Assembly (NCBI GenBank): GCA_012845835.1
Contig: JABAKD010000026.1
Coordinates: 9,905,699-9,969,698 of the forward strand
Source: Undaria pinnatifida
Lineage: Eukaryota > Sar > Phaeophyceae > Laminariales > Alariaceae
Direction: 5' to 3'
DNA length: 64,000 bases
The notes below the pieces were generated by a model that was given only the letters and a program-made list of their open reading frames with translations, had not been told where the DNA came from and ran no database searches. This document shows, piece after piece, positions 3,280-13,012 of this stretch (its first letter is position 1; every line of letters starts with the position of its first letter). The translations under genes and the position numbers were made by a program.

Positions 3280-3469
3280 GCTTCGGGTAGGGCAGGGCAG
3301 CACTTCGACAACTCAAGGTGAAGCTGTCCGATTTGGCATGCATTGAACTTTAAAGTAATGCCAAGAGTTTAATACGAACATGGGATCACGAAAGTCATTT
3401 TTTGACAGAAGAAAAGCGTAATATTATATAACAAAGAAGGCAAGGATATGCAACGACTGGATAAATATA

Positions 3470-3890
3470 TATTTTAGACACCCGTACCCAAGTCTCCAAT
3501 CTCTTGTCCCAACTCTCTCACCGCTTCTGAGTTTTTTTCCTCCATGTCTACCTTCGGGCTGATTCCTCCCGTCTTCTTGTTGGAACAGCTGCCTGCAAAC
3601 ACCAGTCTCGTCTCACGCAGTCCTCTTCCAAGCGCTCGTACAATATAACAGATGTTGTGATGAAACCTCCAAATGTGCCTCACGGTAACGTTCGCTGTAC
3701 TCAAGCTCGGTTCGCAGTCACTCACACACGTGTCAGATCAAGTTCATGTTCCTTTTTCCCTCGTTTGGTTTTGTTTTTTTATGGACTGAGGCCGTGAGCG
3801 GCACGCTTTCTAGACTGATCGGCGTAATATAGACCTAGGCAGCATTCCGCCACGGGGTTTCATGTGACGTCATGTCAATCCGCCGCAACA
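3470..3890 (-). repeat. 3' LTR of the DNMT gypsy element
   Basis: A direct copy of 12594-13012. In minus orientation it starts TGTTGCGGCGG at 3890 and ends at 3470 with GTCTAAAATA. The copies differ by scattered substitutions and short indels. The left flank TATA matches the right flank of the other LTR. Confidence 0.85.
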
Positions 3891-3898
3891 CCCCCCCC
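3891..3898 (-). other. Polypurine tract (G8)
   Basis: Eight C residues on the plus strand, read as GGGGGGGG on the minus strand, directly abut the 3' LTR start. This is the expected place of the plus-strand DNA primer and fixes the element's orientation. Confidence 0.7.
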
Positions 3899-4309: not shown

Positions 4310-4680
4310 CTTTCAGGATTTCATGTTCGTTGAGCTCCTCCCAATCTCTGCCTGCGTACCGAACCCGCCAGTACGGTTACTTGTAGTCGAAGACCTTTGA
4401 AAAGTGACGCTTCTTGTTTCCTCCAGCGTCCGCGATTTCCCTCTAGATCACGGTTCCCACGGGGTGTTGTTTCAACGCTTGTTCGCGGTCGATCCCATCT
4501 CTTTCCTTCCGCGTTAGCGTCGAAGTTGGTGTTGCCCGGCACTCCGCTCCGTGATACGTTTCCCACAGCGCGTGGAAAACGTCCAGCTGTAAAGGGGTGA
4601 AACTGTCTCGTGCCTCCTCTTCGGACAGCTACTGCGACTCTGTGCCATCCACGAATCGTCCCTTTTATCGCCACCTCCAA
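4310..4680 (-). pseudogene. C-terminal pol tail with Tudor-like YWRVRY...DWEEL motif
   Basis: Past the integrase frame, the minus strand continues in a shifted frame. At about 4310-4405 it reads KVFDYK, one stop codon, then PYWRVRYAGRDWEELNEHE. An aromatic-W-x-V-x-Y-x-x-x-D-W/EEL pattern is characteristic of small Tudor/chromo-like readers appended to pol in some algal and protist retroelements. The stop and the frame change show decay. The tail could steer integration through histone binding, as chromodomains do in chromoviruses, but that is an inference. The middle part (4410-4665) is Arg-rich and shows no domain I know. Confidence 0.5.
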
Positions 4681-5780
4681 GCGTTGCCTTGACCCATCAC
4701 AGCCTTTCTGTCTATTAGGGTGTACATAGGCGACGCTAAAATCGACGGCTCCGCTTGTCCGAAGTCAACTCCCCATGCCAGGTGAGCAAATTCGTTTTCG
4801 AAGTCGTGACGGAGGTCGTCCGGACGTAAGTGAAACGTCTTGATCTTCGATGCTGACGCCCGTCGTCGGCGAACCCGTCGCCCATTCATCGTGACGATGT
4901 AGCTGAGTCCTGGTAAGACAACTGCAGTCACCTCCCAAGGGCCGGTCCAGTGCTCGTGGGCTATTTTATTATGTATCCGTTCCCTGGCCATCACAGACTT
5001 CGCCTCCTTCACCAGCACCTTATCTCCGACAACAACAGGAGTTCCCACCGAGGTCCGACCGATTTTAACATTCCGACTCTCACGACGTTTCTGCCTGTCT
5101 TCATGTCTTTTCGATAGAGCCATCCGTACATCCCGTACCTCCTTGTACGCTTGACGTTTGTCGGCCACGTAACTGTGCATCCCGCCTCTAAAATCACCAC
5201 CATCTCTCTCAGGGTGCGTATCATCAAGTTGCGTGCATGCATCACGACCGAAGAAAAGACGGAAGGGAGTTGGCTTCCCCGGTAAGCGCAGGTCCGGCGT
5301 GGTATGATGGATCCACAGTGCCGGTTGTACGTACTCGTCCCATCTGCGAGGCCAGGTCTTGCACAGTTCTCCTAGTGCTTCGTGTAGCCACCCCCCCAGT
5401 CTCTCCACCGTCCCCTGTGCACGTGGATGATCGGCAGGCCCATAGGCGATGGTCACGTACAACCACTTACATAAGTGTTGCATCACCTCTGCCGTGAACT
5501 CGGATCCCGGATCACTGCGAACATACAGCGGTAGCCCAAAAGTAAGCATCACTTCGAGCAGTTTCCTCGCTACTCCGATTGCTTCTTTCGTAGGGATTGG
5601 AAAGGCGAACAATAACTTGCTGGCTTTGTCGACTTCTACCGTAGAACTTTGTTGCCTGCGTCTGACTTTACCCCCATGTTCTGGATGTCGACTTCGAGAA
5701 CTTCCCCGGGTCATAGAAACCTCGACGGTAGCATGGCAACCCGTTGACTCGCTGACCGCTTGCGACGTCTGCACCCACAC
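4665..5780 (-). pseudogene. Integrase core of the gypsy element
   Basis: A 371-residue open stretch carries an rve-type integrase. SDPGSEF holds the second catalytic Asp (residue 90) and GTVERL holds the Glu (residue 126), separated by exactly 35 residues, the D,D35E spacing. VDKASKLLFAFPIPTK lies upstream. The first catalytic Asp is seen only in another frame near 5700, in EVLEVDIQNMGVKSDAG, so a frameshift splits the fold. Residues 145-330 cover the usual HxTP-like region (HHTTPDLRLPGKPTPFRLFFGRD, shortened here to its core TPFRLFFGR) and a C-terminal SH3-like part (DKVLVKE, HEHWTGPWEV, GLSYIV). The protein would insert element cDNA into the genome. This copy is inactive. Confidence 0.85.
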
Positions 5781-6320
5781 AAGAGGACGTGGTTTCTAAC
5801 GTCCTTTATGAAGGTGGGCCAGCAGTACCGATGACAACTCAAGGCTGTTGTTCTCGCCGTCCCCGGATGCCCATAGGTGCTGTGCGCCAGCGCTATAATC
5901 ACTGGAACGAGATCGGGGAACTGAAAGTCGTGGGATCTTTCCCCGAGGTGCTACCCACAAGAGGCCGTTATCATCCATCACATATTCGCCACCTCCTGAT
6001 CCTCGGTTTCCCGCTTCCTGGATTTCTTTCCGAATATTGCCAAGTACCATATCTTTGCACTGCCTCTGCATCAGCTGTGGCAAATCCTGGAGAATAGCTG
6101 TCACTCTTTCCAGCATGGATGGCTGTGACCGCTGGGGTCCCTTGGCCTCTTTCCCTGATCCGCTTGAACGGCTGCTGGTGTCCTTCGGTGATTCCTCCAA
6201 CGGATTACGTTGCCGTTTCGGTCTCGGGATGGGCTTTCTCTGTCCCCTGCGTTTGCGTGGGCGATCAACTTCCACTGGTAGTTCGGTAGTAGTGACCATC
6301 TGCGCCGTTGCATTCTCCAC
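5711..6320 (-). pseudogene. Basic linker and integrase zinc-binding region
   Basis: Two frames are needed. The upstream one (6320 to about 5890) gives a Lys/Arg-rich segment, RPRKRRGQRKPIPRPKRQR, a likely nuclear localisation signal. It is followed by a helical stretch and by YVMDDNGLLWV, the usual entry into a pre-integrase domain. The downstream one (5902-5711) gives HSTYGHPGTARTTAL, then a Trp-containing stretch, then a Cys pair before RRRK: the HHCC zinc finger of integrase, with the Cys pair spaced one residue short. The shift between frames falls near 5900. The linker separates the DNMT module from the integrase. Confidence 0.7.
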
Positions 6321-6383
6321 CTCCTCCTCCTCAGGTAACGGCGGTTCTGCCTCCCAGACAACCTCCGGTGCCTGGGAAGTGGC

Positions 6384-7405
6384 CTATGCCTGCGATCTCG
6401 TGACCGCTCTTGTCACCTCAAAGGCTTTTGATGCTGCGAGGTAATCCTCAAACACCATGCAGGCCAATCCTTCTAGTTCCGCGACCTTTGGTATCGGTTT
6501 TCCCAGTAAGCCTTGACCAGCTAGTTGAACTAATACTGCTCGTATCATTGGAGGAGACGTAAAATCTGCGATGACGTTTGCCGCGGCGCTTTTGCTGACC
6601 GTCTGCGGGATCACGCAGTGTTCCTGCCCGGTGGTGATTATGGCGTAGCCGTTGGAGTGCAACTCTTCGGGTTCTTCAAGGCGTGCCGCATCCGCTGCGT
6701 GTGCGATATACCCTTCGGTTGGCTTTTCCCCCATGATGTGAGCACGGTTCAAATAGATGATGGGTTCGTTGAACCAGAAAATCGCTCGCCCTCCGTTACC
6801 TCTCTTTAGGAAGTATGCGCCTCTTCGTCATAAAAGTTTCCCTAATTCCTGAACTGGTTGCTTTACCTTCTCCAACCTCCGCTTCCAAACAGCTAACTTC
6901 CCTTTTGTGGCAAGGCCTCCCTTGATTCCTACCACGAAAGTCCGTTGCCTCCTCCACGGAATCCCTACTTGGCTCGCTAGTATCTCCGCATTGTCCACGA
7001 TGTATGACTCTCGTTGCAAAGCGGGGAGAACCTCGTCGTTCCATTCCGTCGTTTGCAGAAGGTTGGCCAAACATTCGAGTATGAAAACTCGCGCGTCTGA
7101 AGCGATTGGGCTAAGCTACTCGCTCCGGATATTCCCTCCTTCTCTCGTGTCCCTTCAAACCTCCTGCAGGCATCACCGACCACCACGTCTGGTTTCACCT
7201 CTCTCAACATGGTTAGGCATTCATGCGACCCTGTTGTCACCCTAAGTAGCTTCGCACCGTTGTCCAGTCCGTTTGCTCTGATGCATTCCAGTGTTCTCCA
7301 GTCCTGGTCTACTGCTCCTCTGACCGTTAGCAATTCCTCTGATGCAAGGATGCTGCCTCGCCCCCCACAGTCGAGCATGACCACCCTGGAAGCTCCGGTG
7401 CGATG
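6384..7405 (-). pseudogene. C5 cytosine DNA methyltransferase module within pol
   Basis: Between RNase H and integrase the minus strand encodes the ordered motifs of a C5-DNMT. MLDCGGRGS corresponds to motif I (AdoMet binding), GAVDQDW with TLECIRANG to motif II, and PDVVVGDACRRF to motif IV with the catalytic Cys at 7166-7168. RVFILE corresponds to motif VI Glu, and VGIPWRRQRTFVVGIKG to motif VIII. After a variable region that would hold the target-recognition part (RAIFWFNEPIIYL...), FTSPPMIRAVLVQL corresponds to motif X. The span of about 330 codons fits one catalytic domain. Frameshifts lie near 7105 and 6800-6840. The canonical PPC is DAC, ENV is ECL, and the motif VIII Gln is Trp, so this copy is dead. 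The parent would have transferred methyl groups to cytosine in DNA. DNMT-bearing retroelements are known to me from dinoflagellates and charophyte algae. Confidence 0.83.
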
Positions 7406-7429
7406 ACAATTTGGGCCTGTTGAGTATCT

Positions 7430-8358
7430 GCCTCGGATGGGTCTGCGATTGTGAGTGCGCCGGCTGCAAGTACTGCAAGATTTTGAGTACTAGATCCGTC
7501 CACATCTTCTACTCCTACGGTTTCGAGGTGTACGCCGTCGAGCGCTGGCCCCTGTGATCCTTTGTAAATGTTTGGCAGCGACTCGTCTCTTGGAAAAAAG
7601 TCGTCCAAATCTTCGATCACGATGCTCTTGTTCGGTAACCGCGACATGGCGTCTGGGAGCTGATGTTGTGTCGCCGGTCTCCACTTCAAGGTTATGTCGT
7701 GCTCCGTCAACCTCAGAGCCCAGCGGTGATATTTCGGTGTGAGAGGTTGGCGTTTGAAGAGCCAAGTCAACGCCGAACAGTCCGTGATGAGCGTGAACGG
7801 TCGCCCCCAAAGATAGGGTTGGAATTTGCTCACTGCCCACATGACCGATATGCATTCACGGTCTGTTGCTGACCTTTTGGAGTCTCCTCTCGACCATCGT
7901 TTGCTGCCGTACGCGATCACGTTCTCCATTCCTTCGATGCATTGTGTTAGCACCGCTCCTGCTCCTATCTCTCTGGTATCGGTGGACAGCGAGAACGGTT
8001 CTGTCCACACCGGCAGGGCTAGGATTGGAGGTGACGTCAAAGCCTCGATAAGCGCATTAAAAACTTTGTTCTTCTCTTCTCTCCGCGGGACTTTCTCTTT
8101 CTTCGCTCTCTTGGTTCCGAACCTTGGATCTCTCAGCAAGTCGGAAATGGGCGCCACAACTGTGCTATACTGGGGTGCGAATTGCCGTAAGTACCTTGTC
8201 ATGCCCAGCAACACTCGCACTTCCTCCACCGTGTTCGGCCTTGACAGCTGCGTGATAGAATCGACCTTTCTCGGGGCCGGCCTGGTACCAAGTCTATCCA
8301 CGATTATGCTGACGAACTCCATGACCGACTGACAGAAATGCGATTTCTGAAGATTCAC
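7430..8358 (-). pseudogene. RT thumb/connection and RNase H of the gypsy element
   Basis: A long open stretch begins just past the RT palm with NLQKSHFCQSVMEF and LGMTRYLRQFAPQYS, the standard gypsy RT connection. It then shows a full RNase H. The acidic residues are visible in STDTREIGAGAV (Asp), ATDRECISVMWA (Glu), LITDCSALTWLF (Asp) and QLPDAMSRLP (last Asp). The domain would degrade the RNA strand during reverse transcription. After about 7600 the frame runs through an acidic linker (VIEDLDDFFPRDE) and is lost just before the DNMT module near 7400-7430. Confidence 0.88.
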
Positions 8359-8394
8359 GGTTAATCGTCCTTGCCGTAGACACTCTAACGTTTC

Positions 8395-9075
8395 TCGCAG
8401 CAGTCCCCATTGATCTTCAAGGGTTTCGACGGGATGGCGATGTCGTCTAACCAGTTCCTAATTCCCCTATCCTTTACGGTTAACAGTGGCCTCCAACGTA
8501 GTTGGCAAACGCCGAAGGCACTGTTTTCAACCCGAAGCCGCAGCGAACGTATTCGTACAGCTTTCCGTCCGCGTCTCGAAATGCCGTCAGGTGTCGATCG
8601 TCCTCATGGATCTCGAGCTGTAATAATCCTGAATCTAAATCGATGCTGAAGAAACACTTCGACCCTTCCATCTCATCCATAATATGCTGCAAGTCCCCAA
8701 GTCCACCACTCTGTGATTTGAGAAGGGCATTGATACCTCGAAAATCCTACACGCCCCGCACTGTCCCATCTTTCTTGCGAACCGTTGAACAATTGGCGGC
8801 CCACTCGGAAGTTGATTCCCGAATGAATCCATTCTTCAGGAGTTTCACCGCCTTAGTCTGAAGCATCTCGCGCTGTTCCGGGCTGTAGTGTCGAATGGGC
8901 GCCACGTATGGCCTGACGTTGGAATCTTTGAGCTCCAGTCGCATGGGCACTCCTTTGCACGCTGGTACGCTTTGGAGCTGACCGAGAACACGTCGATGTA
9001 CTCGTTGAGAATGCCCATCAATGTGTCCTTTTCGCTCGGACTGAGCTGTCCGAAGTTGGCCTCTCCCAGGTCCAC
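8395..9075 (-). pseudogene. Reverse transcriptase fingers and palm
   Basis: Three frames together give a gypsy RT. LNEYIDVFSVSSKAY (9000-9060) leads into RPYVAPIRHYSPEQRE and WAANCSTVRKKDGTVRGV. Then follow FFSIDLDSGLLQLEIHEDD (motif A Asp), FRDADGKLYEYVRCGFGL, and near 8440-8458 NWLDDIAIPSK, the YxDD motif C with Trp in place of Tyr. Frameshifts occur near 8950, 8750 and 8500, and another just past motif C. It would copy element RNA into DNA, but this copy cannot. Confidence 0.85.
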
Positions 9076-9535: not shown

Positions 9536-10090
9536 CTAAACAGAGCTTCCTAACTCCATAATCCCCCCCGGGATCTTCGGTTCCTCTAATTCTTCCGGTT
9601 CTCGCTCGTCTGTCGATGGCTTCACCCCGCAATAGTGGTCGCATTCGGCACACATCGCTCCTGCTGCGGCCTCTCCGACCTCCGTCGGGGCGAATGGTAC
9701 CCACGAAATGGATGGTGTCGGCCGGAAACCCTCCTCACCATCGAAACTGATGATACTTCCATTGTCCGTCATGAACGCGACTCCAAGCACCATCGCATAC
9801 GGAAGTCCCTTCACCACCCCGAACTTCTCACGGAGGATTTGGTCGATCGATGCAAAGACTAGTGGTAGCAAGCGCGAGCCTACCACTTCCATCGGGGGTA
9901 CGGCGCTATTCTTTGGGTTTGCTGCGCGGAGTAGGCCGTCTCCCGTTGGATTTATCAGCGATATTCCCCAACCATCACGTTCTTCAATGAGTTCGATGAA
10001 CTGCCATGATACATAGTTTCCCCCACCCGCCTCAGTATCCACCAGCACCGCAATCGGAAGTCGCCGGTTCGAGCTCGTTGCATGCCACAA
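9536..10090 (-). pseudogene. Retropepsin-like aspartic protease
   Basis: A 184-residue open stretch carries the retropepsin pattern: VLVDTEAGGGNYVS at residues 15-28 stands where VDTGAGxNF(I/V)S is expected, and MVLGVAFMTDNGSIISFD supplies the later hydrophobic-Leu-Gly flap-to-core segment. The active-site Gly is replaced by Glu, which should abolish activity. The C-terminal third is acidic and contains three Cys residues. The protein would cleave the gag-pol precursor during particle maturation. Confidence 0.72.
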
Positions 10091-10117: not shown

Positions 10118-10660
10118 TTAGTTTGCAGTGCTCCTATTTTCGATCGGTGAGAGGAATTCTTTGAACCCTGGCTGCTCTTGACCAGTGAACCCTGACTGCC
10201 GTTGGCCAGCTGGCTGTTGTTTGATCAGTGAATCCTGGCTGCTGTTGGCCAGTGAACCCTGGCTGCTGTTGACCAGCAAACCCTGGCTGCTGTTGGTCAG
10301 CAAACCCTGGCTGTTGTTGGCCAGCGACCTTGGCGCCATCGGAGGTTCCCATCGCGATCTAGGGTTCGGCGGTTCTCTTCTTGGGATTGTCTGTGGACCC
10401 CATCGTCCTCTGATTTCAAACGGTGACGGTAGGGAGGGAGCGGACATCTGATTGTACCCGCCTCCCGTTCCTACATGATTTGCCGGTCCTGCTGCCCCTT
10501 ATTCTGCACCACCCTGTGGACCCCATCCAACCGGGCCGCTCGATGGTGGGCCTCCATCCTGGCCGCCCTGAGACGGGCCTCCCTGTGGTGGGCCTTCCAT
10601 CGGGTGAGGTGCACCAAAAGGTCCCCAAAAAGGTACCCCTCTTCCTGCCATGTTGTTTTC
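10118..10660 (-). pseudogene. Gly/Pro/Gln-rich gag-like segment with QQPGF repeats
   Basis: A candidate start at about 10651 gives MAGRGVPFWGPFGAPHPM and a Gly/Pro-rich stretch with GG-QGG repeats. After a stop, the next frame continues with PFEIRGRWGPQTIPRRE and then five tandem copies of a pentamer-like QQPGF[A/T][D/G]Q (or NSSQGLL in the other frame). This looks like the low-complexity, nucleic-acid-binding end of gag. No capsid-like helical domain was recognised, so the main part of gag is missing, strongly diverged or lies upstream in an unreadable state. Confidence 0.45.
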
Positions 10661-12593
10661 TTCAATCACTCTTCCCCCCCCTCCCCGGGACGCCGCCCGT
10701 TTCCCTTTGATGAAACCTCTCGCTTTGCTGTCGGGTAGAGTAAGATGAACTGGACGAAGTTGTGCAGTACACGACGGACTCGACGACGCTGTGTTGTATC
10801 CGACGAATGGAGCTGTGCAGTAGGAGCTGTGCAGTATGCGACGGACTCGATGAGGCTGCGTGGTATACCATGTACTCGACGCAGCTGCGTCGTATAAGGT
10901 GAAGATGGTATCCAACGATGGCAGGCTAGGGAGACGAGTGGAGTCCAGGGGATCGATGGAGTCTAGTAGCACCAAGTTTTCCGCATCAAACGGGTATAAA
11001 CAGTGGCTTGGGACAAGGTGGGTGGGAAAGAAAGTTGGTGAAAGGTTTCGAGTACATGAATATTTACCTTCCTGGTTTGTTGAAAGTTGTCCTCTTATCA
11101 TAATATACATGAAATCCTTCGGAAATGCTGCCCTTCGAAAGCTGGAGTCTTCACCAACAGAATAACGTATGGAATCCCTTAGGTATCCAAGACACATCAA
11201 TCCATTTGTAGGCATTAGCTACATCTGTCATTGTTGTACATCCTTCATGCACATTTTTTGAACGAATTTGGAACAGAAGAATAAATCATTTTGTAAACAT
11301 CTATCGAAGTATAAGCGTCCATACGTAACACAACAATCGATGAAGTTTCAAGGTCTACATATATTCATACATAGCTATTAGTAGTAAATTACTACGCGCC
11401 TTGAAAGGACTTGTATAGTATCTCTCCATGTAGCTCCACTGTATGCAGTAGTTCCCATGTCGGGTATAGCTCCACTGGCATGCGAAATGTTTTTTTGTTC
11501 TCATTAATTAATATTAATGCGTTCTTACAATCCTTACAATTCCAACGTACTTATCTCACTTCCCCTCCATTAATGCATTATTTACAATCCTCAAGATGCC
11601 AACCTACTTATCAAGCTTCCCCCTTTCCCATTCCAATAAGATAATGTTCCTAAACCATGTTTCCAATTCCGGTAAGTTCTTAACATGACAAAGAGCAGCT
11701 ATAGAAATGCTTAGATTCCCCATATAAGATTAAAAACCAGAACCAGTTTGCAGTATCACTACTCTTGAAACACATGTGCGAACGACCTCGCAGTACCTAT
11801 ACAACCTGCGAAGACACAAAATCCCCATCACAAAGGCCAAAACCAAATTGCTTGCAAAACAGACCCTTGTCTTATGGGTGTCTCACAGCATGCAACAAGT
11901 GTAGATCAACAAACAGACCCGAACTCATTTTCAACCCGTATGATGAACGCAAGCACGTTCCTACTGTGGCTTATCACGTATGAACTTACTCGTCATTGAA
12001 AGCAAAAATGCAAGCTTTGCGGAGCAATTTACAATTAATGCATACCAATGTTTCTTCTGCATCGCATACAAAAGAAACAGTGAGTCAGTCAAGGCGGGGA
12101 GAATCTTGTTTGCTCTCTGTATATACTGTTGTGCGTAGCATGGACTGAGTGACTCCTCATCATGTATAAACTATCAAGCGTCTCATTCCTCGCCTCCACT
12201 GTCTAGAAATGACGACCACTGATTCTCATCACTCATGCGGCCTGCTGTACCCCTGCTTCTATTTCTGCGGTGTCTGCCTGTGGTTATCCTGCAACGTGTG
12301 GGGTTTGTGATACTGCTTCAAGCGAGATTTTCCTACACGAGCAAGATTTTTACCATTATAATATACAGTTGAACTGCCATGAAATTCTATTCAACATCCT
12401 GTAAAATTGATTCATGTTTAGACTACTCCTTTCTTTCCACACTCTATTTTATGCATTCTTTCACCAAAAATGGCCTGGCATGCTGCTGTACTTCTACCTG
12501 CGCATTTACGACCGTACTTCTACCTGCGTCAAGCGAGACTATCAACCCACACGGATCCCAGCTAAAGCCCTATATAACGAACGGAAGAAGAGC
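10661..12593 (-). other. Long leader / unrecognised interior next to the 5' LTR
   Basis: Nearly 2 kb without a recognisable domain. Positions 10740-10900 contain degenerate direct repeats built on GTGCAGTA and CGACGGACTCGA. 11480-11660 is AT-rich with a loose ~60-bp duplication around ATTAATGC...TTACAATCC. 12240-12540 repeats the phrase CTTCTACCTGCG / TCAAGCGAGA. It may be a true long leader, a degraded gag, or one or more unrecognised insertions. Confidence 0.4.
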
Positions 12594-13012
12594 TATTTTA
12601 GACACCCGTACCCAAGTCTCCAATCCCTTGTCATAACTCTCTCACCGCTTCTAGTTATTTTCCTCCATGTCTACCTTAAGGCTGATTCCTTCCGTCTGCT
12701 TGTTGGAACAGCTGCCTGCAAACACCAGTCTCGTCTCACGAAGTCCTCTTCCAAGCGCTCGTACAATATAACAAGTGTCCGGATGAAACCTCCAATAATG
12801 CCTCACGGTAACGTTCGCTGTACTCAAGCTCGGTTCGCAGTCACTCACACTCGTGTCAGATCAAGTTCATGTTCTTTTTCCCTCGTTTGGTTTTGTTTGT
12901 TTTGGGACTGAGGCCGTGAGCGACACGCTTTCTAGACTAATCGGCGTTATACATATCTAGGCAGCATTCCGCCACGGGGTTCCATGTGACGTCATGTCAA
13001 TCCGCCGCAACA
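12594..13012 (-). repeat. 5' LTR of the DNMT gypsy element
   Basis: Direct copy of 3470-3890; read on the minus strand it begins TGTTGCGGCGG at 13012. TATA follows at 13013-13016 and matches the outer flank of the other LTR. Transcription signals were not identified with confidence. Confidence 0.85.

Follow-up and report, generated by a model that had tools for sequence, protein, structure and literature searches.

The brown alga Undaria pinnatifida very probably harbours a multicopy Ty3/gypsy retrotransposon whose pol gene carries, in frame and in the order RNase H-domain-integrase, a domain of about 320 residues that is descended from a C5-cytosine methyltransferase and moves with the element. 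We analysed a stretch of 64,000 nucleotides (the window; G000:C33:9905699-9969698 in an Undaria pinnatifida assembly of 511,146,479 bases), for which a preliminary description made from the letters alone had proposed a methyltransferase-like domain between the RNase H and integrase of such a pol gene, in a host suspected to be a stramenopile. The host is indeed one, and the arrangement was found both in the window and in an unbroken frame at another locus, L032. The window copy is a decayed element on the minus strand, its coding regions interrupted by stops and frameshifts, with the following features:

12571..13012, minus strand: 5' LTR, which pairs with 3449-3890 (the element runs right to left)
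10499..11215, minus strand: open frame at the gag position, with no Pfam match at E up to 1
9536..10090, minus strand: probable protease region, an open frame with DTxAG- and LGxxF-like motifs
7387..8881, minus strand: reverse transcriptase and RNase H (RT-RH) in three frame pieces, with 87-92% identity to the L032 RT-RH
7103..7384, minus strand: probable methyltransferase-derived domain, part 1, with 88% identity to residues 2-95 of the protein P0003
6432..7112, minus strand: probable methyltransferase-derived domain, part 2, with 87% identity to P0003 residues 95-321
4932..6428, minus strand: linker, H2C2 zinc finger and integrase core, with 76% identity to the L032 linker and integrase (IN)
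3891..3898, minus strand: polypurine tract (a G run on the minus strand) adjoining the 3' LTR, read from the sequence
3449..3890, minus strand: 3' LTR, partner of 12571-13012

The two LTRs differ by 37 mismatches across 440 aligned positions (a separate alignment gave 92.9% over 421), and the element is flanked by ...GATA on the left and TATA... on the right. The bounding LTRs of the preliminary description therefore stand, but the target duplication that it reported is not exact. In the ORF at 7327-8358 the RNase H was recognised by Pfam (RT_RNaseH, E 6.5e-27), and the linker and integrase (6428-4932) occupy a single frame in which stops are present. The ORF at 4665-5780 matched rve at E 4.2e-4 and 21.0 bits, below the cut-off of 32.6, and both H2C2 and rve were found in the part of L032 that corresponds to 4932-6428. 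We take the DTxAG- and LGxxF-like motifs at 9536-10090 to mark the protease; Pfam returned DUF6789 alone for this region, below cut-off. A short tandem repeat with a unit of about 24 bases lies upstream of it, at 10162-10334. Ten selected window ORFs, in which host genes were sought, gave no Pfam match above cut-off.

The domain of the window copy spans 7384-6432 (minus strand) between RNase H and integrase. Its first part holds motifs I (LDCGGRGS), II (AVDQD) and IV (GDACRRF), and its second part holds motifs VI (FILECL) and VIII (GIPWRRQRTFVVG) and an X-like motif (ADFTSPPMIRAVL). The motif order that had been read from the letters is thus present, but it is split over two frames, with a TGA at 6828-6830 inside the second part; the catalytic cysteine is likewise there, but in GDACRRF instead of the (P)PCQ that is usual for motif IV of C5 methyltransferases.

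A search of the Undaria genome with P0003, which is 323 aa long and open across the whole domain, gave at least 128 matches, counting fragments and split copies (124 of 321 candidates scored); the figure is a minimum for matches and not a copy number. Among the matches listed, 44 span at least 310 of the 323 P0003 residues, and 17 of these 44 are free of stops. Three loci (L044, L041 and L042, at C22:388258, 413120 and 437985) are evenly spaced, about 24.86 kb apart, which resembles a tandem segmental duplication. L032 provides a full-length copy with the order RNase H-domain-integrase: its stop-free frame of 3,963 bases contains RVT_1, RT_RNaseH, PF00145 (19.7 bits, under the cut-off), H2C2 and rve in that order, and its LTRs are identical across 443 bases and have TG...CA ends. 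GACA flanks L032 on both sides, but the flanking tandem repeat itself contains GACA. We read L032 as a recent insertion that brought the domain along, although gene conversion between its LTRs may be an alternative source of their identity. The multiple matches and the open pol frame between identical LTRs indicate that the domain belongs to a mobile element, as had been argued from the window.

Profile comparison gives good support for a C5 methyltransferase ancestry of the domain. An hhalign comparison of the domain family with aligned sequences of E. coli Dcm plus nine proteins from a phage collection, of which one carries the annotation hypothetical (Dcm relatives L002-L028 were excluded as too similar to be useful), gave a probability of 92%, an E value of 6.5e-7 and a score of 56.6, against a peak of 21.0 among 25 column shuffles. 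The match places family columns 19-292 on Dcm 108-452, from motif II to motif X. A first run had given 90% and E 1.5e-6, with 50 shuffles peaking at 22.5, and the control comparisons, in which the RT-RH and IN of L032 were entered as single sequences, gave 0.05% and 0.09%. Most of the signal came from motifs VI-VIII (78%, E 1.8e-5). The C-terminal part by itself gave 6% and E 0.0059, with none of 25 shuffles reaching its score, and motifs I-IV by themselves were below significance, their score being reached by 4 of 40 shuffles in one comparison and by 1 of 25 in another; the assignment of this stretch rests on the collinear alignment. In the alignment of motifs I-VIII, the family cysteine sits on the cysteine of Dcm FPCQPFS.

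Searches with individual sequences gave matches near threshold. PF00145 was the sole Pfam family matched by P0003 (E 1.5e-4, 21.8 bits, cut-off 22), and DNA methyltransferases ranked first when P0003 was compared with PHROGs (E 4e-4). Ten of 30 family members matched PF00145 at E up to 10; P0002 and the distant relatives P0095, P0099, P0101, P0104 and P0108 had no PF00145 match. Nothing in NCBIfam was significant, the best methyltransferase match having an E value of 0.11, and searches of the PDB by phmmer (P0003) and by hmmsearch (A4) found no methyltransferase. AlphaFold models of the domain were of low confidence (mean pLDDT 28.8 and 52.0). In the genome, a PF00145 search at E up to 1, which works exon by exon and could thus overlook a host gene whose exons are short, gave 35 matches, 32 of which belong to the domain family by comparison with the other genome matches. 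Thirteen of the 32 exceed the PF00145 cut-off, each being weak singly (best E 0.003). Homology to C5 methyltransferases is thus significant at the level of the family, but in the PF00145 check that the preliminary description had proposed, the window copy stayed below the cut-off and matched only with its motif VI-VIII piece (6828-7070; E 0.0023, 17.9 bits, cut-off 22).

The remaining three of the 35 matches lie near C33:9.58-9.60 Mb, about 310 kb from the window, where the region G000:C33:9580000-9599900 holds other methyltransferase-like stretches (L059, L060, L095 and L096) with TGIGGF and SGIGF motifs and the genome's best PF00145 scores (65.8 and 34.1 bits). ORFs nearby resemble a TnpB/Fanzor protein and a different gypsy element. 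The region is perhaps an endogenous large-virus insertion.

We counted the conserved residues in the 23 gapless copies out of 30 fetched, excluding seven length-variant copies. The cysteine of motif IV was retained in 20 of 23, in the context GDAC where PPC is standard, and the proline and glutamine were absent. The glutamate of motif VI was retained in every copy, the motif reading ECL in 22 and ECF in one. The two arginines of motif VIII were retained in 22 and 21 copies, and the aspartate of motif II in 22. Standard C5 methyltransferases have FxGxG as motif I and ENV as motif VI; in the family, aspartate replaces the phenylalanine of motif I in 23/23 while the glycines are kept, and no copy reads ENV. 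A second subfamily, represented by P0095 from a JGI contig and in Undaria by L089, which is itself decayed, keeps the cysteine (GDSC, HAC) and has glutamine in place of the motif VI glutamate.

Relatives were sought among 5.8 billion proteins. A first pass (5,350 candidates) gave one relative, P0002, and later searches with two small alignments at E up to 10, each scoring about 8,000 candidates, gave at least 93 and at least 92, mostly from ENA contigs. The latest search found the second subfamily, and among its roughly 8,000 scored candidates there was no bridge to ordinary methyltransferases. The viral and prokaryote contigs that were searched yielded no confirmed relative. The clusters of P0008 and P0034 have 133 and 91 member sequences, far above the other matches, and P0008 terminates in a stretch that looks like translated sequencing adapter.

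An RT-RH search of the Undaria genome gave at least 94 matches (86 of 2,118 candidates scored), and six of those listed group at 58-61% identity. The two of these six that we inspected, L110 (C24:2232000-2236000) and L111 (C27:18743400-18747200), are sister elements of the gypsy type whose pol frames are open but do not contain the domain. They are 57-61% identical in RT-RH and IN (integrase 57-58%), and after RNase H their frame continues over some 20 residues into a linker with the family's VTRAVTR stretch and on to integrase; tblastn found no trace of the domain in either. The domain is therefore not required by every relative. L089 does carry it, at 41% identity, with 53% in RT-RH and 49% in IN. 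Relatives with open frames that lack the segment, which the preliminary description had named as evidence against its reading, do exist, but same-family copies and a more distant element have it, so that the objection holds in part. In a tree built from RT-RH and IN together, the two lineages that have the domain grouped with 67% ultrafast bootstrap, a grouping with which the RT-RH-only tree agreed (0.90) and the IN-only tree disagreed (0.76). The trees do not decide between loss by the sisters and gain by the others.

We estimated selection as NG86 dN/dS in four clean-frame copies and obtained 0.388 for the domain (bootstrap 0.21-0.70), 0.385 for RT-RH and 0.70 for the linker and IN. As a neutral simulation for four copies spanned 0.45-1.40, the four-copy value for the domain is only marginally low. 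For 13 stop-free copies the domain value was 0.459 (0.32-0.64), against 0.59-0.90 in a neutral star-tree simulation. We read the domain as being under moderate purifying selection at a level similar to that of RT-RH.

The CpG observed/expected ratio was 0.945 for the window element and 0.996 for the remaining window sequence (0.87-1.14 when taken in 4-kb stretches), and across 30 element loci it averaged 0.923 (0.890-0.947), slightly under the rest of the window. Transitions at CpG sites between copies were not in excess, their ratio to other C/G sites being 0.80 in 23 copies and 0.93 in four. These data speak against lasting CpG methylation and are compatible with a brief or non-CpG mark, and the earlier proposal that the element methylates its own copies is thus not upheld in the form of lasting CpG marks. 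In the domain region of the 23 gapless loci of L029-L058, C-to-T differences were most frequent in CCT (1.92x the mean) and least frequent in CCG (0.47x), rates in which copy pairs are not independent.

What the domain does can be approached by weighing these results together. That an ordinary gypsy linker merely resembles a methyltransferase by chance is highly improbable and was already disfavoured by the sequence comparisons: the window copy alone does fall below the Pfam cut-off, six relatives have no PF00145 match, NCBIfam gave nothing significant, and the PDB searches returned no methyltransferase, but the family-level E value stands far from its shuffles and controls, DNA methyltransferases were top-ranked in both Pfam and PHROGs, and the motifs are collinear. 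A captured domain that has lost its function and is hitching along would fit the worn motifs and the two sisters that do without it in open pol frames. This we regard as quite unlikely, since the dN/dS of the domain lies below the 13-copy neutral simulation and equals that of RT-RH, 17 of the 44 matches that span at least 310 residues are stop-free, and the domain is also present in L089, which is only about 50% identical in pol. We instead favour, with modest confidence, the account in which a mobile domain derived from a C5 methyltransferase has an accessory role in Pol. The domain would be translated within Pol, would remain with, or be cleaved from, the complex responsible for synthesising and inserting cDNA, and may act there as a nucleic-acid-binding, possibly base-flipping accessory for cDNA synthesis or integration, its methylation being weak, altered or absent. 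The part of this account that has the accessory role proceeding without heritable methylation we hold to be evenly balanced.

Two further readings would retain catalysis. In one, the domain may methylate fresh element cDNA de novo and thereby hide or regulate copies, as has been suggested for such elements in dinoflagellates and charophytes. The retention of the motif IV cysteine, motif VI glutamate and both motif VIII arginines (20, 23, 22 and 21 of 23), the likeness of the domain dN/dS to that of RT-RH, and the slightly lower CpG at element loci (mean 0.92) are all consistent with this, and retroelement DNMTs are reported, in the accessible parts of one study, to be able to methylate CGs de novo (PMC5890265). 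However, CpG transitions between copies are not excessive, motifs I, IV and VI depart from the standard, and brown algae are described in the accessible text of a survey as having no DNMT1 (PMC13076208), so that marks would probably not be maintained; we see this as a tentative possibility, on the unlikely side. In the other, the domain could be a new type of C5 methyltransferase whose active site reads GDAC/ECL/WRR and which continues to modify nucleic acid during retrotransposition, be it cDNA, an RNA-DNA hybrid or primer RNA; this we think doubtful.

Methyltransferases are known from other mobile elements. According to the accessible parts of the report, KnitGypsy-Dnmt3 of Klebsormidium nitens is a gypsy element with a C5 methyltransferase inside its Pol ORF and under purifying selection (PMC5890265), both of which resemble the Undaria arrangement. 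It differs in that its enzyme is Dnmt3-related with conserved key residues, whereas the Undaria domain is highly divergent, probably too much so to be placed with eukaryotic Dnmt3 in a tree; its repeats are DIRS-like, whereas the Undaria element lies between direct LTRs; and its host is a methylating charophyte, whereas Undaria is a brown alga. The same portions describe SymbioLINE-Dnmt and SymbioDIRS-Dnmt3 of the dinoflagellate Symbiodinium as retroelements with built-in C5 methyltransferases (PMC5890265). These are LINE and DIRS elements with functionally conserved key positions, and SymbioLINE-Dnmt copies are CG-poor, whereas the Undaria element is an LTR gypsy with CpG near expectation. 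Among brown algae, the Sola1-1 transposon of Ectocarpus encodes a ParB-methyltransferase protein (PMC12477816, accessible portions) and thus, like the Undaria element, carries a methyltransferase accessory. It is a DNA transposon with a predicted N4-cytosine or N6-adenine enzyme, in contrast to the C5-type domain described here, and no C5 methyltransferase is named in the accessible text of that transposon survey (PMC12477816).

The host context is reported in several sources, each cited here from its accessible portions. A brown algal survey finds DNA methyltransferases wholly absent, DNMT1/3/5 included, with the exception of DNMT2-type tRNA enzymes (PMC13076208). DNMT1 orthologues are named in early-branching brown algae, citing a 2024 study (PMC12344493), so that the loss may not cover the whole group. 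S. japonica is described as having DNMT2-like enzymes only and about 1.4% methylated cytosines (PMC6916402). A review lists DAM- and DCM-encoding gypsy and DIRS elements in stramenopiles, among others, and in its accessible text does not name the Undaria element (PMC6338049); the corresponding text of a DNMT survey that covers diatoms and other microeukaryotes likewise has nothing on it (PMC9998398). Among the literature titles and abstract openings listed, a scope that took in little of the subscription literature, we found no report of the element, in agreement with the earlier suggestion of an unrecorded case. We rate the Undaria element as a divergent form of the known DNMT-bearing gypsy type, in a telling host.

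Two questions become testable with a kelp element that maintains a domain of this kind: do these domains benefit the element itself and not the epigenetics of the host, and does a changed active site remain functional? For kelp methylome and gene surveys, it means that weak PF00145 matches may stem from a retroelement. If the domain were a new type of enzyme and had relatives in other kelps, it might explain the traces of 5mC reported in Saccharina, where DNMT2 is the sole candidate so far in the accessible part of that report (PMC6916402).
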